This document shows, piece by piece, positions 50,098 through 64,000 of a stretch of 64,000 bases of DNA. The notes beneath the pieces are model-generated. The model saw only the letters and a program-made list of their open reading frames with translations, did no database searches and was not told the DNA's origin. The stretch's first letter is position 1, and each line of letters begins with the position of its first letter. This DNA comes from Gammaproteobacteria bacterium (GTDB lineage Bacteria > Pseudomonadota > Gammaproteobacteria > Pseudomonadales > Cellvibrionaceae): positions 248,001 to 312,000 of the forward strand of contig SEBV01000006.1 in the NCBI GenBank assembly GCA_004172865.1. Direction: 5' to 3'. The translations under genes were made by a program, and so were the position numbers.

Positions 50098-51123
50098 ATG
50101 AAAGCCACTATCAAAGACGTTGCCAAACTTGCCGGAGTTTCCTTCAAAACCGTATCGCGGGTTATTAACAAAGAAGGAACCGTCGGCCAGGACCTGCAAG
50201 ATAAGGTCATGAAGGCCGTCAAGGAACTCAATTACCAGCCCAATCTTTCGGCGCGATTGCTGCGCGGCACGGCTTCATCCATAGGTTTTATTTACGATAA
50301 CCCTAACAGTAACTACGTGATCGATATGCAGCGCGGTATTTTGGGTGAATGTCATCGTCAGGGTTATGAGCTGGTCATTCACCCCTGCGATGCAAAATCG
50401 AAAACTATTATTGATGAAATTATTGGTATGGTTGATCGCAGCCGTGTTGGCGGCCTCGTGCTTACGCCGCCGGTGTCAGAAATGCCTGATGTGCTGAGCG
50501 CGCTCAACAAACGCAAACTCAAATACGTGCGCATACTTTCCGGCGCAAACCCACCCGATACTATTTCGCCTTGCGTATTTATTGATGACCGCACCGCCGC
50601 TTATAAAATCACGCAATACCTGATCGATTTGGGCCATAAGGCGATTGCGTTTTTGGGCGGAGATGAAGCGCATAAATCCAGTACTGAACGTATGGAAGGT
50701 TATAAAGCTGCGCTCAAAGAAAATAAAATCACGCTCGATAAAAAATTAATTGTCGGCGGTGAATATTCGTTTGAATCAGGCGTAAAACGCACGCGTCAAT
50801 TACTCAGCGGAAGCACCAAGCCTACCGCCATATTTGCGTGTAACGACGAAATCGCGGCGGGCACCTTATTTGCGGCTCGCATTCAAGGTATCGAAGTACC
50901 ACAACAACTTTCTATCGTCGGCTTCGAGGATTCTCCTTTCTCCCGCCAAGCCTGGCCTAACCTAACCACCGCACAACAACCGATTCGTACTATTGCCCAA
51001 CACGCTACATCCATACTGATTGACGTCATGCGTAACGGCGAAAAAAATGTGGAAAGCGAAGGTTTTTATCCGGAATTAATCGTGCGCGATTCTACTTGCC
51101 CCGTCGCCAGCAGAAAAAACTAA
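50098..51123 (+). CDS. nagR: LacI-family repressor, probable NagR
   Basis: A LacI/GalR-type regulator of 341 residues. The helix-turn-helix ATIKDVAKLAGVSFKTVSRVINKEGTV is at residues 3-29, with the hinge helix QPNLSARLLRG at about 47-57, followed by the periplasmic-binding-protein-like effector domain (AIFACNDEIAAGTLFAARI, SIVGFEDSPFSRQAWPNLTT). Its place directly upstream of nagB-II and nagA makes it the probable GlcNAc repressor, as in Alteromonadales and Xanthomonadales, where LacI-type NagR replaces the NagC of enterics. Effector identity (GlcNAc-6-P or GlcN-6-P) is inferred. Confidence 0.85.
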   Translation: MKATIKDVAKLAGVSFKTVSRVINKEGTVGQDLQDKVMKAVKELNYQPNLSARLLRGTASSIGFIYDNPNSNYVIDMQRGILGECHRQGYELVIHPCDAKSKTIIDEIIGMVDRSRVGGLVLTPPVSEMPDVLSALNKRKLKYVRILSGANPPDTISPCVFIDDRTAAYKITQYLIDLGHKAIAFLGGDEAHKSSTERMEGYKAALKENKITLDKKLIVGGEYSFESGVKRTRQLLSGSTKPTAIFACNDEIAAGTLFAARIQGIEVPQQLSIVGFEDSPFSRQAWPNLTTAQQPIRTIAQHATSILIDVMRNGEKNVESEGFYPELIVRDSTCPVASRKN

Positions 51124-51182: not shown

Positions 51183-51231
51183 GCCGCTTTACAAGCGGCT
51201 AAACTCGGTTCACAATGACAACGTTGTCTCA
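51183..51231 (+). promoter_or_regulatory. nagB-II promoter with NagR operator
   Basis: The element TTTACA (51188-51193), 17 bp, CACAAT (51211-51216) is a reasonable promoter. The palindrome AATGACAACGTTGTCTCA (perfect core GACAACGTTGTC, 51217-51228) overlaps the -10 end and start site, so a bound LacI-type repressor would block transcription. The -35 element is also part of a 7-bp hairpin GCCGCTT-TAC-AAGCGGC (51183-51199). Confidence 0.7.
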
Positions 51232-53547: not shown

Positions 53548-56361
53548 TTATTGAAATTGATAAGTTGCGGATATGCCAGCCGTGCGCGGCGGTAGAAAAA
53601 TAGCATCGAAGCCGCCGGGGGTAATAAATGTTCCCGACGATGTTTTTATATTTTGGTTGGTAAGATTTTTTACAAAAGCTTCCAGCGCCCAACTATTCAT
53701 AGAGTCGTAACGCAAGCTTGCATCGAAAGTATTGTAGGCCTTTTGCACCGCAAGATTTTTAGCTCCATCGGGCGCGCTTTTAAAAACACCTGGGGATAAA
53801 TTTGTGCGGTTATAAATATCCAGAAAATATTTATCTGAAAAAGTAGCTTTGAGCTGCGGCGTTAATGTGCCTTCACCGAAATCAAAATCGTGTTTATAAA
53901 CAAAAGTTAGTTTCCAATCCGGCGCACGCACGGGGGAATTACCGGATAAGTTAACAATTTTTCCAGCGCGTGCTGTATCGCTATCAACATAAGGATTAAA
54001 TAAATTTCCGAACAAGGTATCTGGTGTTTGAAAATTATCGAAACGCGCACTCATTAATGTTGACGCCAAATGTAAATAATCGCGGTTTGTTATCGCCCAA
54101 TCGATTTCAATTTCTAAACCTCTCACAGTAGCCGCTGCCGCATTGCGTACTACCGTGCTGGTGATGCGATCAACTAAGCCATCGCCGTTGGTATCAAATA
54201 AATCGCGATCAGAAAATTGCAGGTTGGTGTAATCCGCTTGATAGAGTGCAGTGTTTAAACGCATATCGCCCGCCAACAAACTCGCCTTTAACCCCAACTC
54301 GTAATTAATAACTTCCTCGGGCGCCGCTTCATTGCCACGATCCTGAATATGGCCGGACTTAAAGCCCGTCGCCACTGATGCGTAACTCATCACGTCCGAG
54401 CGCACGTCATACTCGTAGCGCAATAAGCCGCTAGTATTTTTCCAGGTCGCAGAATAATCGTTCACTTGCCGCGTCCAACAGGGTTGATCGCCAATACCCT
54501 GATGGCCACCATTATCGTAAGGTAATCCTGCATTTATAGCAGCTTGCGCGCCCGTGTCCGCATAAATTTGCGCAGCGCTCGGCGCACCGTGGCCGATAGA
54601 ATTCGCGTTGAAATAAGGTCCGATGCCGGTGACACGGCAGTTAAGACTGCGGCCGCCATGATCGGATTTTGTATCGCGAGTGTGACGAATACCGGCGGTG
54701 ACGCGATTGATCTCGTCCAAATCATAAGTCGCCTGCGCAAACATAGCTTTGGATTCCACTTGCCGATCCGGCTGCACAAAATAAGCGACCGCTGCGCCGC
54801 CAAAATCGCTGATAAAACTGGTGATTTTTGTGGGATCGCCGCCGCCATCACCATCCGCCTGATCAATGGCGTAGACAATATCGTTGCGCTCTTGCGATGC
54901 AAAAGCACCCAGGATCCAACGCAAATGTTCTTTATCACTATTAATCAACTGAATTTCATGGGAGCGAAAACGAAAGGTCGAGCTATCGGTTCGGCGCTGC
55001 TCGTAATTGCCGCTGCGACCCATATCTTGATCGAACCCCTGCTGACGCCGCATCATCGCATTACCGGCGATGTAACTAAAGGTCTGCTCATTAGCGAAGG
55101 TGTAATCCATTCGCGAGCGAAAGGTATTGTTGGTTAAATTAATGTAGGACGGCGTATCTGACACAGTTGCGCGAATCCCGCGCGCGACCAGCGTTGGGTC
55201 CAGCTCGGTCACACTGGTGCCCTCATCACTGTAATGCTCCGCACTTAAAAACCAGCGAAAGTTTTCGTTGGGCTGCCAAAAGCTCGAAGCGCGAACAGCT
55301 TGCTGATCATCAGCGTCTGGCCCCTCTGCATTGATATCAGCTTTTTGATAGCTATTTAAGTCAGCTTCAGTGGCGGGATATTGCGGCCCTAAACCTGCGT
55401 AATTTTTGATGAGCTTGGTGTAGGCATCATGCTTATCGACAGCGCCTGCAATGCGCACCGCCAATTCATCACTGAGCGGCACATTAATCGCTGCCTTGAT
55501 GGCCTTGTGTTGATAATCGCCCAAGGTGATATCCACATTGGCAGATGCAAAATCCAGCATGGGCTTTTGGGTTTGAATATTAATTCCACCCGCCGTCGCA
55601 TTACGACCAAACAAAGTACCTTGCGGACCGCGCAAGACTTCAATGCGGTCGAGATCATAAAGCAGCGTCGCCGAACCTTGCGCGCGCGGCGAATACACAC
55701 CATCTATATGTAAGGCCACGGGGCCGTCGGCAATTTCGGTGATGTTAGTTTGGCCAATGCCGCGCAATTGCACCAACAGCGCAGACTGCTCACCAGTATT
55801 TGTCATTTCCAGACCGGGCACTACATCCGTTAAGTTGCGAATATCCTTTGCTTGAAATTGATTGAGCGTATTTTGATTTAACGCAGTAACAGCGATGGGC
55901 GTTTTTTGTAAATCTGTCGCGCGCTTGGTCGCAGTGACTATAACTTCTTCGATACCTTTTATAGGTTTAGTATTTTCCGACGTTAATTTTTTTGCGGGTT
56001 TTTCGGTAGCGACAATCGTAACGCGTTCTCGCTCACCTACCTTATATTGCAGTGAAGTGCCCGCTAATAATTTGTCCAGGGCATCAGTTAAAGTCATTTC
56101 ACCTTTAAGTGATGGCGAGATGAATTTCGTAACCAGCGCAGACGAAACCAACACGTCCACATTTGCCTGCGCCGATAGGCTAAGCAGCGCAACGTCTAGC
56201 GATTGCGAAGGAATATCGAAATGTATAGTTGCTGCAGACGCGATTTTTCCTTCAGGCAAAAGTGCTGCATGCGCTGAACTTACGAACGCAAATAGGCTGC
56301 AAAAACTCAGAATGAGCGCAGACAAATGCGTTGAAAACCGGCAGCTAAAAGCACTTTTCAT
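53548..56361 (-). CDS. TonB-dependent receptor with N-terminal STN signalling domain
   Basis: A 937-residue outer-membrane transducer. The signal peptide (about 1-32) is followed by an STN domain at about 46-118 (IHFDIPSQSLDVALLSLSAQANVDVLVS, GEMTLTDALDKLLAGTSLQYKV). Then come a TonB box (EEVIVTATKR, about 138-147), a plug (RIEVLRGPQGTLFGRNATAGG) and a barrel with a C-terminal SATYQFQ. STN receptors signal ligand occupancy to an anti-sigma factor of the FecR type. fecI-fecR lies divergently next to it, which makes this the natural partner. I find no copy of the FecI-like promoter motif before this gene. Ligand unknown. It has no ion- or sugar-specific neighbours except nag genes behind it. 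Confidence 0.92.
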   Translation of the reverse strand: MKSAFSCRFSTHLSALILSFCSLFAFVSSAHAALLPEGKIASAATIHFDIPSQSLDVALLSLSAQANVDVLVSSALVTKFISPSLKGEMTLTDALDKLLAGTSLQYKVGERERVTIVATEKPAKKLTSENTKPIKGIEEVIVTATKRATDLQKTPIAVTALNQNTLNQFQAKDIRNLTDVVPGLEMTNTGEQSALLVQLRGIGQTNITEIADGPVALHIDGVYSPRAQGSATLLYDLDRIEVLRGPQGTLFGRNATAGGINIQTQKPMLDFASANVDITLGDYQHKAIKAAINVPLSDELAVRIAGAVDKHDAYTKLIKNYAGLGPQYPATEADLNSYQKADINAEGPDADDQQAVRASSFWQPNENFRWFLSAEHYSDEGTSVTELDPTLVARGIRATVSDTPSYINLTNNTFRSRMDYTFANEQTFSYIAGNAMMRRQQGFDQDMGRSGNYEQRRTDSSTFRFRSHEIQLINSDKEHLRWILGAFASQERNDIVYAIDQADGDGGGDPTKITSFISDFGGAAVAYFVQPDRQVESKAMFAQATYDLDEINRVTAGIRHTRDTKSDHGGRSLNCRVTGIGPYFNANSIGHGAPSAAQIYADTGAQAAINAGLPYDNGGHQGIGDQPCWTRQVNDYSATWKNTSGLLRYEYDVRSDVMSYASVATGFKSGHIQDRGNEAAPEEVINYELGLKASLLAGDMRLNTALYQADYTNLQFSDRDLFDTNGDGLVDRITSTVVRNAAAATVRGLEIEIDWAITNRDYLHLASTLMSARFDNFQTPDTLFGNLFNPYVDSDTARAGKIVNLSGNSPVRAPDWKLTFVYKHDFDFGEGTLTPQLKATFSDKYFLDIYNRTNLSPGVFKSAPDGAKNLAVQKAYNTFDASLRYDSMNSWALEAFVKNLTNQNIKTSSGTFITPGGFDAIFLPPRTAGISATYQFQ

Positions 56362-56678: not shown

Positions 56679-57230
56679 ATGCGCCCATTACAAAACTCCC
56701 GGACAGATATTGTGAGCACATCCACTAAAGAAGCGTATGTGCGTGATATTTATCTTCAGCATCGCGAAGAATTGTGCTGCCATATTGTAAAAAAATGCGG
56801 CGTAAAATTTAGCGAAGCTGAAGATATTGTGCATTCGGCATTCGCACGTTTTGTTGGAATGGAATCACCTTTTGCGGTGGAAAATCCGCGTGCTTTTTTA
56901 TATACCACCAGTTACAACATTGCGATTGATTTAAAACGACACAATCAAGTGCAACACAAATATACGCAAGCGGTAGTCGACAATGATTCAGAAATTGTTG
57001 AAGCGCTTGGGCCCGAACGCGAAGTGGAAGGTAAACAGCGCTTGGGAATTATTTCGCGCGCGTTGTGGGGAATGCCGAAAAAACGTCGGCAATTATTAAT
57101 GATGAGTCGTTTTGATGGATTATCTTATGCAGAAATTGCACGCCAGGTCGGCCTGTCAGAAACCGTCGTACGTAAACATGTCTCCAACGCATTGGCAGAT
57201 TGCCATAAAGCATTACAGGCCCAAGGGTAG
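56679..57230 (+). CDS. FecI-type ECF RNA polymerase sigma factor
   Basis: A 183-residue ECF sigma factor of the FecI family. Region 2 is YLQHREELCCHIVKKCGVKFSEAEDIVHSAFARFV with NPRAFLYTTSYNIAIDLKR. Region 4 is MPKKRRQLLMMSRFDGLSYAEIARQVGLSETVVRKHVSNALADC, a canonical helix-turn-helix. It is followed within 20 bp by a FecR-type regulator. Start: ATG 56679, though a GTG at 56712 is possible. It probably recognises the twin promoter elements at 56514 and 58456. Confidence 0.93.
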   Translation: MRPLQNSRTDIVSTSTKEAYVRDIYLQHREELCCHIVKKCGVKFSEAEDIVHSAFARFVGMESPFAVENPRAFLYTTSYNIAIDLKRHNQVQHKYTQAVVDNDSEIVEALGPEREVEGKQRLGIISRALWGMPKKRRQLLMMSRFDGLSYAEIARQVGLSETVVRKHVSNALADCHKALQAQG

Positions 57231-57248
57231 AGGTTGCGGAATTTAATT

Positions 57249-58295
57249 ATGCAAGCAGATCAGATGGAACACATCAACAACCAAGCCAGAGAATGGTTCA
57301 CGTTGATGCAGTCAGGTTCCGCAAGCGAAGTGGAAAAGCTTGAGCTGCAAGAGTGGTTGCAGGCAAGCAGTGCGCATCAACAAGCTTATGGCGACTACGA
57401 ATTAATTTGGCAAGATCTTGGCAATTTGCACGCGAAAGAAATTGCTGCTCTTAAGCGTTCAGTCAAACCTTCATTTGTTGAAATTTTACAAAATGGTGTG
57501 GCAGCATTCTTTTCTGGACTACGCAATTTTACACTGAGTTCTCAGCGCGGAATTGCATTTGCGTCTGTTGCAATTCTTATTGCCGGTGCATTATTTTTTG
57601 TGCTTCAACCCGAAAAACTTGTTACGCAGGATTTCGCAACTGCAACGGGAGAAATTAAACATTTCACTCTGGAAGACGGTAGCGAAATAACGCTTGGCGC
57701 GAAATCTGAATTGAAAGCCTGGGCCACGACCAAAGAGCGCCATGTTGTGTTGCTGCAAGGTCAGGCGTTTTTCAAAGTTGCCAAAAATCCGCAGCGCCCA
57801 TTTTGGGTGGATGCCGGTGCAACAAAAATTCGTGTTGTTGGAACCCAGTTCGATGTAAGACGCGGATCAGATCGTACGCGAGTTGCTGTGCTTGAAGGTA
57901 TCGTCAATGTATCCAACGCTGAAAGCAGTAAAAGCAGCAACCTATCACCTGTAGTTCTCACAGCAGGGCAACAAGTAACGCGTTTAAATGCAGGAAAATT
58001 TGAAGCAGTAAATTCTATTTCTGTTTCTGAATTGGAATCCTGGCGCAATGGTCGATTGATTTACTTACGCGCGAGCCTTGCAGATGTTGTTGCAGATGCG
58101 AATCGCTATTTTAGCAATTCTATTACTTTAGGTTCAAAAGATTTAGCTGATTTAAAAGTAACAGCCGCAGTAAGCACTAATCAAATTGATGCATTAGCGG
58201 ATATGTTGGCAAGTTCATTACCCGTAGAAATACAAAAAGACTCACAGAACAATATTCTTATTAAATCACGCAACGACAACCTTCCAAAAAAATAA
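57249..58295 (+). CDS. FecR-type anti-sigma/signal-transducing protein
   Basis: An inner-membrane regulator of the ECF sigma factor. An N-terminal cytoplasmic DUF4880 domain (AREWFTLMQSGSASEVEKLELQEWLQASSAHQQAYGDYELIW) is followed by one span (about residues 100-119), then the periplasmic FecR domain (ITLGAKSELKAW, VLLQGQAFFKVAKNPQRPFWVDAG, IRVVGTQFDVR, VAVLEGIVNV). The C-terminus is STN-like and could dock to a receptor STN domain (LADVVADANRYFSNSITLGSKDLADLKVTAAVS). ATG 57249 gives 348 residues. A TTG at 57234 is in frame but abuts the AGAGG ribosome-binding site. Confidence 0.92.
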   Translation: MQADQMEHINNQAREWFTLMQSGSASEVEKLELQEWLQASSAHQQAYGDYELIWQDLGNLHAKEIAALKRSVKPSFVEILQNGVAAFFSGLRNFTLSSQRGIAFASVAILIAGALFFVLQPEKLVTQDFATATGEIKHFTLEDGSEITLGAKSELKAWATTKERHVVLLQGQAFFKVAKNPQRPFWVDAGATKIRVVGTQFDVRRGSDRTRVAVLEGIVNVSNAESSKSSNLSPVVLTAGQQVTRLNAGKFEAVNSISVSELESWRNGRLIYLRASLADVVADANRYFSNSITLGSKDLADLKVTAAVSTNQIDALADMLASSLPVEIQKDSQNNILIKSRNDNLPKK

Positions 58296-58571: not shown

Positions 58572-61349
58572 ATGTTTAAAAAACGAAAACTATCCAGCGC
58601 AATTTTTGCAATTACCGCTGCAGTCTCAAGCTCACAATTTGCTTACGCTCAAAACGCGCCTGATAGCGAAGCTGATGAAGTTATTGTTCAAGGTATTCGC
58701 GGTAGCTTGATGCGTTCGCAAGATATTAAACGCGATGGCAGCGGCGTAGTCGATGCAATTTCTTCAGAAGATATAGGCAAGTTTCCCGATCAAAACCTTG
58801 CGGAGTCTTTACAGCGTATTACCGGCGTTTCTATTGACCGTGCAGGTGGTGAAGGCCAGCTAATTACGGTGCGCGGCTTCGGTCCCGACTTCAACACTGT
58901 GCTGGTTAACGGACGCCAAATGGCGTCTGAAAATGATACGCGCGCATTTAGTTTCGATACTATCTCGGCGGATATGGTTAACAGCATTAATGTATTTAAA
59001 ACTGCCACTGCAACACAACAATCCGGTGGCATTGGTGCAACAGTAAATATTACTACTGCGCGCCCATTAGCATTACATGATTTAAAAATTGCAGGTTCGA
59101 TTAAAGCCTTACACGATGATAATAGCGGTGAAACTACGCCCGAATATTCTGCATTGATTAGCGACACTTTTAATGATGAAACTTTCGGTGCGTTACTCGC
59201 CGTATCACATCGCAAAGCGGATACGCGTTTGAATCAAGCGCAAACGGACGGCTGGTTAGAAAACGCCGGTATTCCCACTGCGGAATTAAATGGTGGTGCT
59301 GGTTTTGCGGGCAATGTATTTTCGCCGCGTAACTATGACACCAAAGTGACTTTTGAAGAACGCACTCGCACCAATACCAATTTAGTTTTGCAATATAAAC
59401 CAAAAGATAATTTAACCTTAACGGCTGATGCATTATTTTCTGATTTCGATATCAAAACTGATTCAACGTCATACGGCCACTGGTTCACCGCGCCTAACAT
59501 CGAAAATGCGGTGACGGACAGCAACGGAACTGTTGTTGATCTCTATCAAGAAACGGGTTTGGCTACCGATTTCCACGCGAAAAAATTTGATCGCCTGACC
59601 AGCACCAAATCTTACGGCTTGCAAGCTGATTGGGATGTTACTGATACCTTAAATATCATTTTTGATGTATCGCAATCAAAAGCCGAACGCGAAGCCAACA
59701 ACGGTGGCGGCAATCAACTGTCATTAATTGGTTACAAAAATCGTGTGCGTTTTCAATCAGACGATAAAATTTTGCCGTGGGTAAGTGAATTTGAGGATGC
59801 GGCAACGGGCCTCGACTACGACGGTACTTTACACAATGTTTCAAATTATCTTGATCCCGCCAACGGCCGTGCGCACGTAATGTTACGTCGCGGCTGGGAA
59901 GTGGAAGATGATATTAAACAATACAAAATGGACGGCATTTGGAAAGAAGGATCTGACACGGGATTGGTCGCCGCAAAATTCGGTGCAAGCTTATCCAAAG
60001 AAACTAAATCGTTGGCCTATTGGACTAACGAAATTGGCGGCGTTCACTGTACCTATTGCGGCTACGCGGACACACCCGATTTACCTGACAGTATTCTCAC
60101 TGTATTCGATGCAGGCAATGATTTCTTAAGCAATGTCAGTGGCCACGGTAGAACGCCAACCAAATGGTTGCGTCACGATGGCGAAAAACAATTTGCGTAT
60201 CTGGAAAGTTTAAGCGGTGCAAACTTTGACGCAAAACGTTCAGATATTTCTTACGCCGTTGAAGAAGAAACTACGTCAGCTTATTTTGAATTTGATTTTG
60301 CGGGCTCAATTGCCAACATGCCATTGAAAGCAACAACGGGTGCGCGTCTTGAAAGTACTGATGTGACGGTTGTGGGAACCCAAGGTGCGCCGGAGCGTTT
60401 GGATATTCTCGACCAAACGGAAATGTCGACGGTTTATGGGGCTGCTGCAGCCATTGACACTTCAGCATCCTACAAAGCTTTGTTACCGAATGTGAGTTTA
60501 AATTTAAATGTCACCGATGATCTTATTGCACGTGTTGCAGCCTCGCGGTCTTTAACGCGCGCGCCGCTAAATAGCATGACGCCTGCAACCAATATCGTCA
60601 CTACACGCCCGGGAACACTCACCGCAAGTGCAGGGAACCCCGCGTTAAAACCATTCCTCTCCGACAATTTGGATTTATCACTGGAATGGTATTACGGCGA
60701 TGCAAGTTATGTATCTGCAGGCTATTTCTGGAAAGACGTAACCAACTTTATTATTACCGGTACCAAGAAACAAACTTTCACTACTAGTAATGGAAGTTTG
60801 TTGACCGATCCAAGTTCCGGTACTAATCCAAACGCACCCGACGCTGGCGACAACGTTGCTGAATTTACTGTAACGCTGCCAAGCAACGGTGAAGAAGCTA
60901 TTGTCGATGGTATCGAAGTCGCGTGGCAGCATACCTTTGGCGATAGCGGTTTCGGCGCAATTGTGAACGGCACCATTGTAGATAGCGATGCTCCATTAAA
61001 AGCGGGCGACATCACGCAAAAATTTGCGGTGACTGGCATTAGTAATTCTGCAAACGTTGTGGGCTTCTATGAACAAGGGCCTTATCAGTTACGAATTGCT
61101 TACAACTGGCGCGATAAATTTTTACAGTCATTAACGCAAACCAATGGTGATGGTGTTGTACACGTAGCGGCTTACGGTCAGTGGGATATGAGCGGAAGCT
61201 ACGCCATTAACGAAAATATTTCGATTCTATTTGAAGCCACCAATTTAACTGAAGAAGTGGTTACCAAATACGGTCGCTATAAAAATCAATTTTTATTGGC
61301 AGAAGATGCAGGGCGACGTTTGTCACTCGGTGTAACCGCTAAGTTTTAA
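58572..61349 (+). CDS. TonB-dependent receptor (TIGR01782-like, Xanthomonas/Caulobacter type)
   Basis: A 925-residue outer-membrane transporter without STN. Signal peptide (residues 1-26, SSQFAYA), TonB box (DEVIVQGIR, 34-42), plug with the subfamily-specific wording (VVDAISSEDIGKFPDQNLAESLQRITGVSI, TVRGFGPDFNTVLVNGRQMA), then a barrel with a C-terminal GVTAKF. Receptors of this type usually import plant- or algal-polysaccharide oligosaccharides, and the nag operon next door raises the possibility of chitooligosaccharides. The substrate is not proven. It is probably controlled by the FecI/FecR pair. Confidence 0.94.
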   Translation: MFKKRKLSSAIFAITAAVSSSQFAYAQNAPDSEADEVIVQGIRGSLMRSQDIKRDGSGVVDAISSEDIGKFPDQNLAESLQRITGVSIDRAGGEGQLITVRGFGPDFNTVLVNGRQMASENDTRAFSFDTISADMVNSINVFKTATATQQSGGIGATVNITTARPLALHDLKIAGSIKALHDDNSGETTPEYSALISDTFNDETFGALLAVSHRKADTRLNQAQTDGWLENAGIPTAELNGGAGFAGNVFSPRNYDTKVTFEERTRTNTNLVLQYKPKDNLTLTADALFSDFDIKTDSTSYGHWFTAPNIENAVTDSNGTVVDLYQETGLATDFHAKKFDRLTSTKSYGLQADWDVTDTLNIIFDVSQSKAEREANNGGGNQLSLIGYKNRVRFQSDDKILPWVSEFEDAATGLDYDGTLHNVSNYLDPANGRAHVMLRRGWEVEDDIKQYKMDGIWKEGSDTGLVAAKFGASLSKETKSLAYWTNEIGGVHCTYCGYADTPDLPDSILTVFDAGNDFLSNVSGHGRTPTKWLRHDGEKQFAYLESLSGANFDAKRSDISYAVEEETTSAYFEFDFAGSIANMPLKATTGARLESTDVTVVGTQGAPERLDILDQTEMSTVYGAAAAIDTSASYKALLPNVSLNLNVTDDLIARVAASRSLTRAPLNSMTPATNIVTTRPGTLTASAGNPALKPFLSDNLDLSLEWYYGDASYVSAGYFWKDVTNFIITGTKKQTFTTSNGSLLTDPSSGTNPNAPDAGDNVAEFTVTLPSNGEEAIVDGIEVAWQHTFGDSGFGAIVNGTIVDSDAPLKAGDITQKFAVTGISNSANVVGFYEQGPYQLRIAYNWRDKFLQSLTQTNGDGVVHVAAYGQWDMSGSYAINENISILFEATNLTEEVVTKYGRYKNQFLLAEDAGRRLSLGVTAKF

Positions 61350-61373
61350 ATTCATCGGCTATCTCCTCGCTTT

Positions 61374-61400
61374 GGGTTGCCGTTATGGCAACCCGTTTTT
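61374..61400 (+). terminator. Rho-independent terminator after the receptor gene
   Basis: Stem GGGTTGCC / GGCAACCC with a GTTAT loop, then GTTTTTCG. It may be partial, allowing some read-through into the halogenase-like gene. Confidence 0.82.
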
Positions 61401-61457: not shown

Positions 61458-63002
61458 ATGAATACTGCGATTAAATCGATTGTGATTGTCGGCGGTGGCA
61501 CTGCTGGCTGGATTACTGCGGGGCGCATTGCGGCAAAACATAAATCCAATACCAGCGCTGGCATTAAAGTAACGCTAATTGAATCACCAACTATAAATAT
61601 TATTGGTGTGGGCGAAGGCACTTGGCCGACCATGCGCACTACGCTTATGAAAATGGGAATTTCCGAAACTGAATTTATGCGCGAGTGCGATGCAACTTTC
61701 AAGCAAGGTGCAAAATTCGCAAAATGGGTTGATGGAACTCCGAACGATTTTTATTACCACCCACTCATGCTTCCGCAGGGATTTAACAAAGTGGATTTGC
61801 CGCCCTATTGGCAAACAGAATTCAGCCACCAATCTTTTTCAGATGCCGTGTGTTTTCAAGAACAAGTTTGTGAACATGGGCTCGCACCGAAATTAATTAC
61901 AACCGCAGAATACGCTTCAGTCGCCAACTATGCCTACCATTTAAACGCGGGGAAATTCGCTACATTTTTACAAAAACACTGCGTTAATAAACTCGGTGTA
62001 AATCATATTCTCGGCGATGTTATTCAGATCAATTCCGCCGAAAATGGCGATATAAAATCTGTAACCACTGCGCAGCAAGGCGAAATTTTCGGAGATTTAT
62101 TTATTGATTGCACCGGCTTCTCATCGCTGTTACTCGGCGAGCATTTAGCCGTGCCTTTTGTTGATAGAAGCGATGTGCTTTTTATTGATACCGCCATAGC
62201 GGCGCAAGTGCCCTACGAGCAGGAAGATGCACCTATAGCGTCGCACACCATTTCAACTGGCCAAGCCGCTGGCTGGATCTGGGATATAGGATTAATACAC
62301 AGACGTGGCACCGGCTACGTTTATTCCAGTAAACACACCAGTCATGATGAAGCAGAACAAACCTTACGCGATTACATAGGGCCTGCGGCAAAAGATTTAA
62401 ATTTTAGAAAAATTCCAATTCAATCCGGTCACCGAAAATTATTCTGGAAAAACAATTGTGTCGCGGTAGGTTTATCGGCGGGATTTTTAGAACCGCTCGA
62501 AGCATCCGCGATTGTATTAGTGGAACTGTCAGCGGAAATGATTGCAGAACAATTACCGGCTTGCAGAGAGGTAATGGATATTACCGCTAAACGCTTTAAC
62601 GAAACATTTTTGTATCGCTGGGATCGAATCGTTGATTTTTTAAAATTGCATTACATTTTAAGTAAACGCTCCGATAATAGTTTTTGGTCGGATAACCGCA
62701 ACCCGGAAACCATTCCTGAAAGTCTGCAAGAACTTATGCAACTGTGGCGCTACCGCTCACCCGGCAATCAGGATTTCACCAGCAATAACGAGGTATTTCC
62801 TGCTGCCAGTTACCAATACGTGCTCTACGGCATGGGTTTTAAAATGGATGCGAGCTTAATTGCACATACATTGGATGCAAAACATTTAGCCGCCGAGCAA
62901 ATTTCACAAAATGCCGCGACAATTAAAAAAGCACTGAATATGTTGCCAACCAATCGCGAACTTATGAAAAAAATTCACGAATTCGGTTTCGCAAGCGTTT
63001 AA
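61458..63002 (+). CDS. Flavin-dependent (tryptophan) halogenase-like protein
   Basis: A 514-residue FAD-dependent monooxygenase-fold protein of the tryptophan-halogenase family. The Rossmann motif GGGTAG is at residues 12-17. VGEGTWPTMRTTLMKMGI and ATFKQGAKFAKW carry the usual catalytic-Lys position (Lys82). The WxWxIP motif is WIWDIG (273-278), with Gly instead of Pro. FLEPLEASAIVLVE is typical. Family members next to TIGR01782-type receptors and SapC genes are common in Caulobacter and Xanthomonas relatives, and their substrates are mostly undetermined. Whether this protein halogenates at all is open. Confidence 0.88.
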   Translation: MNTAIKSIVIVGGGTAGWITAGRIAAKHKSNTSAGIKVTLIESPTINIIGVGEGTWPTMRTTLMKMGISETEFMRECDATFKQGAKFAKWVDGTPNDFYYHPLMLPQGFNKVDLPPYWQTEFSHQSFSDAVCFQEQVCEHGLAPKLITTAEYASVANYAYHLNAGKFATFLQKHCVNKLGVNHILGDVIQINSAENGDIKSVTTAQQGEIFGDLFIDCTGFSSLLLGEHLAVPFVDRSDVLFIDTAIAAQVPYEQEDAPIASHTISTGQAAGWIWDIGLIHRRGTGYVYSSKHTSHDEAEQTLRDYIGPAAKDLNFRKIPIQSGHRKLFWKNNCVAVGLSAGFLEPLEASAIVLVELSAEMIAEQLPACREVMDITAKRFNETFLYRWDRIVDFLKLHYILSKRSDNSFWSDNRNPETIPESLQELMQLWRYRSPGNQDFTSNNEVFPAASYQYVLYGMGFKMDASLIAHTLDAKHLAAEQISQNAATIKKALNMLPTNRELMKKIHEFGFASV

Positions 63003-63023
63003 TTATCATGGAGCAAAATAACT

Positions 63024-63740
63024 ATGTCTAATTTAGTAGCACTACACAATAACGCACACCAAAGCCTTAAAGTGAACACGCAACTCGCTGAAGCCCAGGG
63101 CGGCAACTTACATATGATTCCTGTGGTACTCAGCGAGTTTCTAAAATTAGCGGTACAGTTCCCTATTGTTTTAACCAAAAACAAAGATACCGGCCGCTTC
63201 TCTTGCATCACCTTGTTTGGTTTTCAAACCAATGAAAATCTCTTTGTAAAAAATGGAGAATGGGATTCACTTTATATTCCTTTGCAAATCAGACGGCAGC
63301 CATTTTTCCTAGGCAATTCCAGCGACGTTGAAAATGAATTTGTTATTTGTATTGATACGGATCATAAAAGTTTGCAGAGCGATATAGGTGAGCAAGTGTT
63401 CGATACTACTGGCAAAGAAACGCCCTATCTCGAAAATATAAAAGCGATTCTGGCTGAGCTTATGAATGGTGAAGCTAGCACTGAGAACTTTGTGAAAACC
63501 CTGGCTGAATTAAATTTATTACAGCCTATGCGTTTGGAAATTACGTTTAAAAACGAAGATTCTATGCGGGTAGACGGCCTTTACACCATCAATGAAGACC
63601 GCTTAAAAACGCTTGAAATTGAGGCGATTACGCAGTTACATCAGAAAAATTATTTAAGTTCAATTTATACAATGATCACTTCGGTTGGTCATATTTACGG
63701 GCTAATCGAACGAAAAAATAAACAGCTAAGCGGCAATTGA
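63024..63740 (+). CDS. SapC-family protein
   Basis: A 238-residue protein of the SapC family (PF07277-like; name from the Campylobacter S-layer locus). The core VVLSEFLKLAVQFPIVLTKNKDTGRFSCITLFGFQTNENLFVKNGEWDSLYIPLQIRRQPFFLG is typical. No signal peptide or membrane span is seen. It starts 22 bp after the halogenase-like gene, so the two are likely cotranscribed. Function is unknown. In many bacteria it accompanies TonB-dependent receptors and halogenase-like proteins. Confidence 0.88.
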   Translation: MSNLVALHNNAHQSLKVNTQLAEAQGGNLHMIPVVLSEFLKLAVQFPIVLTKNKDTGRFSCITLFGFQTNENLFVKNGEWDSLYIPLQIRRQPFFLGNSSDVENEFVICIDTDHKSLQSDIGEQVFDTTGKETPYLENIKAILAELMNGEASTENFVKTLAELNLLQPMRLEITFKNEDSMRVDGLYTINEDRLKTLEIEAITQLHQKNYLSSIYTMITSVGHIYGLIERKNKQLSGN

Positions 63741-63742
63741 TT

Positions 63743-64000
63743 ATGAATACTGCAACTTCACTCGTCAGCCAAATAGCTAAATCAGTAGCGGAAAATAATG
63801 TTCCTCAATTTAATTTTTCGATTAATCCCAATCTTAAAATTAATACTATTTACGTGGGAAATGAGCAGGAACCTGTTGTTATTGTGGATGACCTTTTGAA
63901 TTTTCCAGAGGCAATAATTCAATATGCGGAGACGGGTTTCCCCTTTAAAGCAGATGCTAAAGATTTTTACCCCGGCATTAGAAAACCACTCGCGCCCTCT
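63743..64000 (+). CDS. DUF6445-like protein, 3' part beyond the window
   Basis: The frame opens with ATG at 63743, 3 bp after the SapC stop, and stays open for 86 codons to the window end. The visible sequence (INTIYVGNEQEPVVIVDDLLNFPEAIIQYAETGFPFKADAKDFYPGIRKPL) matches the start of DUF6445 proteins, which look like distant 2-oxoglutarate-dependent oxygenases (the VVIVDDLLNFPE pattern). The catalytic part is cut off, so the assignment is tentative. It is a frequent partner of SapC and halogenase-like genes. Confidence 0.75.
   Translation, partial: MNTATSLVSQIAKSVAENNVPQFNFSINPNLKINTIYVGNEQEPVVIVDDLLNFPEAIIQYAETGFPFKADAKDFYPGIRKPLAPS

Follow-up and report, generated by a model that had tools for sequence, protein, structure and literature searches.

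Several halogenases related to the enzyme considered here have been described. BrvH and Xcc4156, two proteins of the PF04820 type, have been studied as biocatalysts; according to the available portions of the reports, both have an open active site and an unknown natural substrate, for which a peptide has been suggested (PMC5945002, PMC7336383). In Xcc4156 two short loops leave the active site open, and this is the basis of the peptide-substrate idea (PMC7336383, in the part available). The BrvH report, as far as its text was accessible, places a second halogenase gene near brvH and states that a MibH-type halogenase acts on tryptophan within a peptide (PMC5945002). Halogenase transcripts have been assigned to Colwellia and phages (PMC11337851, available in part). 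On the side of uptake, receptors beside carbohydrate-utilisation genes are known from the carbohydrate-utilisation (CUT) loci of Xanthomonas and aquatic bacteria (PMC1790865, in part). The stretch of DNA analysed here (the window, 64,000 nucleotides; C227:248001-312000 of its own genome, G000) likewise places a TonB-dependent receptor beside sugar genes. Unlike the CUT loci, for which the accessible text of PMC1790865 contains no occurrence of the word 'halogenase', it carries behind the receptor a cassette encoding a halogenase-like flavoenzyme, a SapC-family protein and a DUF6445 protein.

Across genomes, halogenases of this kind are associated with receptors of the TIGR01782 subfamily beyond chance, and those standing between receptor and SapC carry a motif signature of their own. 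No paper on the receptor–halogenase–SapC set was found in the open-licence literature, among the matches listed, and the cassette is not described in the available portions of PMC5945002, PMC7336383, PMC8269204, PMC11337851, PMC12645471, PMC12871659 or PMC1790865. The receptor and cassette of the window are as follows.

58572..61349, + strand: TonB-dependent receptor, TIGR01782 subfamily (647 bits, curated cut-off 310)
61373..61395, + strand: intrinsic-terminator-like hairpin in the receptor–halogenase gap (hairpin scan; most G-C pairs of the region's sites)
61458..63002, + strand: flavin-dependent halogenase-like protein, WxWDIG subfamily (PF04820, 413 bits; Lys82 and Glu345 kept)
63024..63740, + strand: SapC-family protein (PF07277, 227 bits)
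63743..64000, + strand: DUF6445 protein, first 86 codons (PF20043, 235 bits; predicted Fe/2-oxoglutarate oxygenase)

The initial annotation had described three genes packed behind the receptor with gaps of 22 and 2 bp. SapC and DUF6445 are indeed 2 bp apart, but the gap between halogenase and SapC is 21 bp, and the packing does not extend to the receptor: 108 bp separate it from the halogenase, and the terminator-like hairpin at 61373-61395 lies between them. DUF6445 starts at the ATG at 63743 (a TTG lies upstream at 63737) and runs past the window end; the gene is complete in L009:8737-9510, with a window-equivalent end at 64510. In the receptor, plug and barrel models alone match, and no STN domain was found.

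Association with TIGR01782 receptors

Twenty-five rows of the source genome match PF04820; two are one split, weak 425-residue protein and were dropped, leaving 23 halogenases. For eighteen of these a TIGR01782 receptor is found at a distance of 5 kb or less, and 12 of the 23 TIGR01782 rows above the cut-off have a halogenase within 5 kb, a pattern of many copies rather than one shared pathway. In the ten stretches with the 11 unlinked receptors, profiles built from the genome's own members found no halogenase, SapC, DUF6445 or Cupin_8 gene. The genome has five SapC and five DUF6445 matches, and Cupin_8 proteins and one JmjC_2 protein are also partners in cassettes. The JmjC_2-type gene, a third type of oxygenase, lies within SapC–Cupin_8–halogenase–DUF6445 cassettes at L026:11219-12517 (by Pfam) and in L108 (by built profile). 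One TIGR01782 row covers one half of a receptor whose match falls in two frames (L032; G000:C195:1803-4510); this receptor adjoins a halogenase and is likely a disrupted gene or an assembly error.

Five whole genomes were surveyed; in the four besides the source genome, receptors were accepted at 1e-100 and halogenases at 1e-50. A TIGR01782 receptor stands no more than 5 kb from 54 of their 67 halogenases and from 16 of their 21 SapC genes, and 39 of 95 such receptors have a halogenase within that distance. The control genome, that of Caulobacter vibrioides, has TIGR01782, PF04820 and SapC matches. When the halogenases were placed at random and independently, the number near a receptor averaged 4.2 and never exceeded 13 in 2000 runs. 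Each of the five genomes has exactly one SapC gene distant from every such receptor, which in the source genome is L035:9831-10631.

Beyond the source genome, genes were named by profiles built from its own members (those for FecI, FecR, JmjC_2 and nag genes each from a single sequence), and two samples of loci were drawn. In one, the genome's five DUF6445 proteins served as queries and yielded 444 relatives, of which the best 80 define loci L037-L116; the choice of open reading frames recovers DUF6445 itself in 73 of the 80. A halogenase is present in 54 of these loci and a consecutive halogenase–SapC–DUF6445 run in 28, with a receptor immediately upstream in 26 of the 28; the other two are at a contig edge (L053) or have none (L059). 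Records with this run include Cellvibrio, Colwellia, Rheinheimera, Shewanella, Pseudoduganella, Steroidobacter, Marinicaulis and Emcibacter.

For the other sample, whole genomes were searched with the window halogenase (E ≤ 1e-120, few candidates scored per genome), so that loci were chosen independently of their neighbours. The class sample gave matches in 3 of 185 genomes, the order sample in 30 of 293 and the phylum sample in 25 of 398, the source genome being counted each time. The 60 loci taken comprise all 36 non-own order matches and 24 of 41 further phylum matches, four non-own class matches being left aside; the two samples partly overlap (the gene string of L164 is that of L059). A TIGR01782-like receptor occurs in 58 of the 60, each within 5 kb of a halogenase, the exceptions being L162 (a 3.4-kb contig) and L164. 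SapC is present in 53, Cupin_8 in 32, DUF6445 in 12 and FecI or FecR in four, and the commonest run of core genes, in 18 loci, is receptor–halogenase–SapC–Cupin_8–halogenase. The earlier claim that such cassettes recur beside TIGR01782-type receptors, for which neighbourhood statistics across genomes had been proposed as a check, is supported.

Terminator-like hairpins, by our own criteria, occur in 37 of 64 homologous receptor–halogenase gaps, near-identical loci being retained in the count, and in none of the 64 halogenase–SapC gaps. When the receptor–halogenase gaps were shuffled 40 times, 0.6 gaps on average and 2 at most had such a hairpin. Since the halogenase–SapC gaps are shorter (median 30 against 123), the contrast between the gap types is partly an effect of length. 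In the region of the window itself, ten terminator-like sites compare with a shuffled mean of 9.2, which is no excess.

Halogenase subfamilies and the predicted oxygenase

The flavoenzyme keeps the FAD motif GGGTAGW (residues 12-18) and the catalytic positions Lys82, as the initial annotation had read, and Glu345, with aligned Lys and Glu in four solved sequences; Lys82 presumably occupies the position of Lys79 in PrnA and RebH. In place of WxWxIP it has WIWDIG at 273-278. That reading was correct, but it is no local oddity. The closest solved sequence, 2pyx (573 bits), which we take to be a Shewanella structural-genomics halogenase, reads GWIWDIGL like the window enzyme and is listed merely as 'Tryptophan halogenase'. 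The MibH-type peptide tryptophan halogenase, as we take 5uao to be, is distant (159 bits), and BrvH (6frl, 254 bits) and Xcc4156 (6y1w, 230 bits) are likewise less similar than 2pyx. According to the part of the Xcc4156 paper available, the 2pyx enzyme is unnamed and unpublished (PMC7336383). A 21-residue insertion of 6nsd is missing from the window enzyme near residue 147, close to the first of the two short loops of Xcc4156, the only loop compared (PMC7336383, in part); RebH is also short there, according to the portion available.

Among 95 halogenases of at least 430 residues, drawn from the DUF6445-seeded sample and the source genome, 90 keep the Lys and 93 the Glu, and seven lack one or the other. 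All 28 full-length halogenases of this set that precede SapC–DUF6445, the window's included, read W[IV]WDIG, and six more WxWDIG enzymes stand at other positions. Over all loci, the 63 distinct halogenases flanked by receptor and SapC all read W-x-W-[DE]-I-[GA] and none WxWxIP (52 WIWDIG, 6 WVWDIG, 1 WFWDIG, 2 WIWDIA and 2 WIWEIG), the halogenase-first sample having been seeded with a WIWDIG-type enzyme and the DUF6445-seeded sample not. Directly after Cupin_8, WxWxIP is found in 36 of 38 (7 of 7 in the DUF6445-seeded sample, 3 of 3 in the source genome and 26 of 28 in the halogenase-first sample); the two exceptions read WVWDIA and WQWRIG. Given the 63 of 63, WIWDIG is, by sequence, the signature of a position-linked subfamily and not of a decayed site.

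The seven halogenases in which Lys or Glu is gone, the FAD motif of some being broken as well, are L020:10525-11970, L027:10965-12449 (Ser in place of Lys, FAD motif broken), L074:3169-4635, L076:15860-17287, L082:10741-12204, L096:10713-12194 and L103:15881-17302. Four of them directly adjoin intact halogenases, and these degenerate paralogues could possibly be scaffolding pseudoenzymes.

For DUF6445, the earlier suggestion of an oxygenase-like protein is strengthened by residues and by a structural model. In an alignment of 64 sequences H136, D138, H228 and R246 are invariant, an HxD...H triad plus an Arg, and the matching triad residues are invariant in the five proteins of the source genome; R246 would be the 2-oxoglutarate-binding Arg. 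An AlphaFold2 model of the homologue from L037 (predicted local distance difference test, pLDDT, 94) was matched by Foldseek to 2-oxoglutarate oxygenases, the best being HygX (E 4.4e-5). The 13 matches at E ≤ 0.001 include OGFOD1, PHD2, AndA, OkaE and a DNA-methylation-lesion complex; their query-normalised template-modelling (TM) scores are modest, at 0.35-0.49. PHD2, OGFOD1 and HygX share the predicted fold and the HxD...H residues at 9-12% identity, and no related solved sequence was found at E ≤ 1. DUF6445 is thus predicted to be an Fe/2-oxoglutarate oxygenase with a double-stranded beta-helix fold. A search of the open-licence literature found no paper naming DUF6445.

The name SapC derives from a surface-layer role. 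We know of no function for either the SapC or the DUF6445 family. The AlphaFold2 model of SapC (pLDDT 95.6) gave no fold match at E ≤ 0.001 in the PDB or in a viral library, the two matches to solved sequences are at chance level (E 0.38 and 0.53), and no signal peptide was recognised by reading the open reading frame, no predictor being used.

A proposed target of the cassette enzymes

Scans of selected neighbours place the source genome's cassettes beside different sugar genes: those for N-acetylglucosamine (GlcNAc), an arabinose isomerase, a glucan 1,4-alpha-glucosidase, and hydrolases of the glycoside hydrolase types GH95 and GH9. A related cassette adjoins a GH5/CBM2 gene. This suggests that the enzymes go with the receptor and not with any single ligand, their target being the receptor itself or some other partner in common rather than the nutrient taken up. 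Receptors of this type deliver to the periplasm, and reading of the window enzyme frames gave no obvious export signal (no predictor was run). Varied sugar genes, many copies per genome and the lack of a readable export signal together point to a common target that is linked to the receptor. The explanation tentatively preferred here, which we would place a little below an even chance, is that the enzymes modify a protein or peptide belonging with the receptor, the receptor precursor being the simplest candidate. It draws on the computed linkage, the rule of subfamily by position, the active-site residues, the predicted oxygenase fold and the terminator-like hairpins. The peptide substrates suggested for BrvH and Xcc4156 (PMC5945002, PMC7336383, in part) would fit it, as might the insertion missing near the first Xcc4156 loop, although RebH is short there too.

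In such a scheme the receptor would be made in quantity and, beyond the terminator-like hairpin, smaller amounts of the enzymes would follow: a flavin-dependent halogenase of the special subfamily, SapC and an Fe/2-oxoglutarate oxygenase, all presumably cytoplasmic. The oxygenase slot would be filled by DUF6445 here and by Cupin_8 or JmjC_2 elsewhere; the Cupin_8 and JmjC_2 groups include protein hydroxylases, as does the group that the DUF6445 model resembles, with PHD2 and OGFOD1 among its matches. The target would be a receptor-associated protein or peptide, in the simplest case the unfolded receptor precursor before export, rather than a sugar; SapC might serve as a recruiting or accessory factor, the chemistry would be halogenation or hydroxylation, and in this subtype the FecI/FecR pair would switch the set on. 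In L054 and L048 the receptor–halogenase gap is 3-4 bp, too short for a precursor-peptide gene at that place; none is known in the cassette, no search aimed at one having been made.

Receptor and halogenase distances correlate across species (r 0.62 over 111 pairs, a value that none of 1000 permutations reached), and in 63 receptor–halogenase–SapC loci r is 0.77 for receptor and SapC, 0.70 for receptor and halogenase and 0.64 for halogenase and SapC, with partial correlations of 0.59, 0.43 and 0.22, respectively. With 200 sites each the order is unchanged (0.75, 0.67 and 0.62; partial 0.57, 0.40 and 0.24). SapC and halogenase divergence in these loci tracks the receptor more than each other. 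On a tree of 44 receptors, halogenase association must have changed at least 8 times, against a shuffled mean of 13.8 (2 of 1000 as low), the dropping of duplicates having lowered the share of linked receptors.

Several results weigh against a receptor-linked target. These across-species correlations retain the shared ancestry of whole cassettes, and within the source genome halogenase and receptor distances are uncorrelated (11 cassettes, r 0.06, 1402 of 5000 permutations as high). No tryptophan column is diagnostic of halogenase-linked receptors (122 linked, 27 unlinked): the best, W846, reaches 0.79 in linked against 0.30 in unlinked receptors, and several columns other than tryptophan differ more, such as R916 (0.88 against 0.22). 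These differences are at the level that phylogeny alone would give. Five of the 23 halogenases of the source genome stand outside receptor cassettes (L021, two in L028, L029 and L033), 26 of the 80 DUF6445 loci have no halogenase, 14 of them over 19-21 kb, and no report of a halogenated receptor was found. The DUF6445 model also resembles the small-molecule oxygenases HygX, AndA and OkaE, all with modest TM-scores, and the subtype I receptors, those of the halogenase–SapC–DUF6445 cassettes, may share one ligand, so that ligand chemistry within the subtype is possible. The lack of a diagnostic tryptophan, the lack of correlation within the genome, the DUF6445 genes outside cassettes and the shared ancestry left in are what keep the preferred explanation tentative.

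W442 was considered as a target, at 0.50 in linked against 0 in unlinked receptors (58 and 11), but both values are at or below 0.3 in the larger set. As no column is diagnostic and this signal fell away, no receptor tryptophan is claimed as the target. DUF6445 loci with no halogenase in the fetched stretch include L068, L079, L107 and L110, and the family also works outside receptor cassettes.

The initial annotation had proposed that the enzymes chemically process the molecule imported by the receptor. Physical linkage fits this, as do the small-molecule oxygenases among the DUF6445 matches and a subtype I whose receptors, 56-87% identical to that of the window across Alpha-, Beta- and Gammaproteobacteria records (classes of some records being presumed), may share a ligand. 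A halogenase would, however, find no aromatic group to act on in GlcNAc, arabinose or glucose, and enzymes of related families go with receptors that stand beside very different sugar genes. Delivery is to the periplasm, and no export signal was recognised on reading the window enzymes. Together these points leave the proposal unsupported and, in our estimate, unlikely. A variant would have the set make a small halogenated or hydroxylated molecule (a co-ligand, chelator or signal) that the receptor imports and that feeds FecI/FecR signalling. FecI and/or FecR do occur in 28 of 32 halogenase–SapC–DUF6445 loci (the window's own included, L059 and L164 both counted), and the STN domain in 11 of 28 receptors of the subtype and in the window's divergent receptor. 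One cassette per receptor and many per genome are nevertheless hard to fit to one common molecule, the recurring neighbours of 29 subtype I loci include no recognised scaffold-making gene, and the FecI or FecR count of four among the 60 halogenase-first loci (by single-sequence profiles) speaks against it too, so that this variant also appears improbable.

Linkage could instead reflect co-regulation only: the enzymes would serve redox or halide handling in general, be expressed along with nutrient uptake, and have no molecular connection with receptor or ligand. The orphan halogenases of the source genome and the palindrome that the second cassette of the locus shares with nagB and nagK would suit such a function, but position-specific subfamilies and a recurring gene order ask for more, and we give it little credence. 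An ordinary tryptophan halogenase of a natural-product pathway, which membership of PF04820 and the kept catalytic Lys and Glu might suggest, is scarcely credible: the window enzyme lacks WxWxIP, its structurally characterised relatives BrvH and Xcc4156 do not halogenate free tryptophan (available portions of PMC5945002 and PMC7336383), and no natural-product gene is among the identified neighbours, no dedicated cluster scan having been made. The earlier view that this is no classical natural-product context agrees with these observations.

Modification of a receptor-linked protein also admits a broader form, which we consider doubtful: a widespread, undescribed post-translational modification in which two position-specific subfamilies of cytoplasmic halogenases, with SapC and the 2-oxoglutarate oxygenases DUF6445, Cupin_8 and JmjC_2, would halogenate or hydroxylate receptor precursors before export, each receptor having its own cassette and some cassettes including degenerate paralogues as scaffolds. 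Receptor modification, if real, would place nutrient uptake in glycan-using bacteria under a further, new level of control. A halogenase subfamily set by its place beside receptor and SapC makes the substrate question testable, and the search for substrates of such enzymes could take in the receptor or a receptor-linked peptide besides free indoles. SapC and DUF6445 gain a common context, and DUF6445 a likely chemical class as well.

Control signals and the neighbouring N-acetylglucosamine genes

Upstream of the receptor the window contains the following features.

50098..51123, + strand: LacI-family regulator (PF00356, Peripla_BP_3), by its context the probable NagR of the adjoining GlcNAc genes
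51217..51228, + strand: palindrome GACAACGTTGTC, upstream of nagB-II; sole window match at ≤1 mismatch
53548..56361, - strand: divergent TonB-dependent receptor with STN signalling domain (PF07660, PF07715, PF00593)
56679..57230, + strand: FecI-like extracytoplasmic-function (ECF) sigma factor (PF08281, TIGR02937)
57234..58295, + strand: FecR-like anti-sigma factor (PF04773, DUF4880)

Downstream of the window the source genome continues with the remainder of DUF6445, GlcNAc genes, and a second gene each for a DUF6445 protein, a halogenase and a TIGR01782 receptor. Among the GlcNAc neighbours nagA (TIGR00221) and nagK (NF046058) score above their cut-offs, NagB-II and NagP models match genes of the locus below theirs, and the set also includes an HGSNAT_cat (NagX-like) protein and the LacI-type regulator. 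The second cassette (L009:13429-18441; C227:316429-321441) consists of a DUF6445 gene divergent from nagK, a WTWDIP halogenase and the TIGR01782 receptor, which is preceded by two exact GACAACGTTGTC palindromes.

The single window match of GACAACGTTGTC is within chance, since 12 of 100 shuffles also give one. L009 has three further exact copies, of which two precede the second receptor and one lies in the interval from nagK to the second DUF6445; these exceed chance (0 of 200), and TGACAACGTTGTC has ten matches genome-wide, four of them at the GlcNAc locus. Because copies stand at nag genes and at the second receptor, the second cassette is predicted, from its sites, to be a member of the GlcNAc regulon. 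From 51229 to the window end the palindrome has no match at ≤1 mismatch, and FecI and FecR lie upstream of the first cassette, which is therefore probably under their control.

The window receptor (L009:3572-6349) has in its barrel an H-C-x-x-C motif (residues 492-496) that is invariant in the 28 receptors directly before halogenase–SapC–DUF6445 and seldom found in others; it is probably a loop disulphide. The divergent STN-type receptor at 53548-56361 faces FecI, and a protein of the same BLAST cluster, which also includes a member in L046, is equally placed in L037, L038 and L044.

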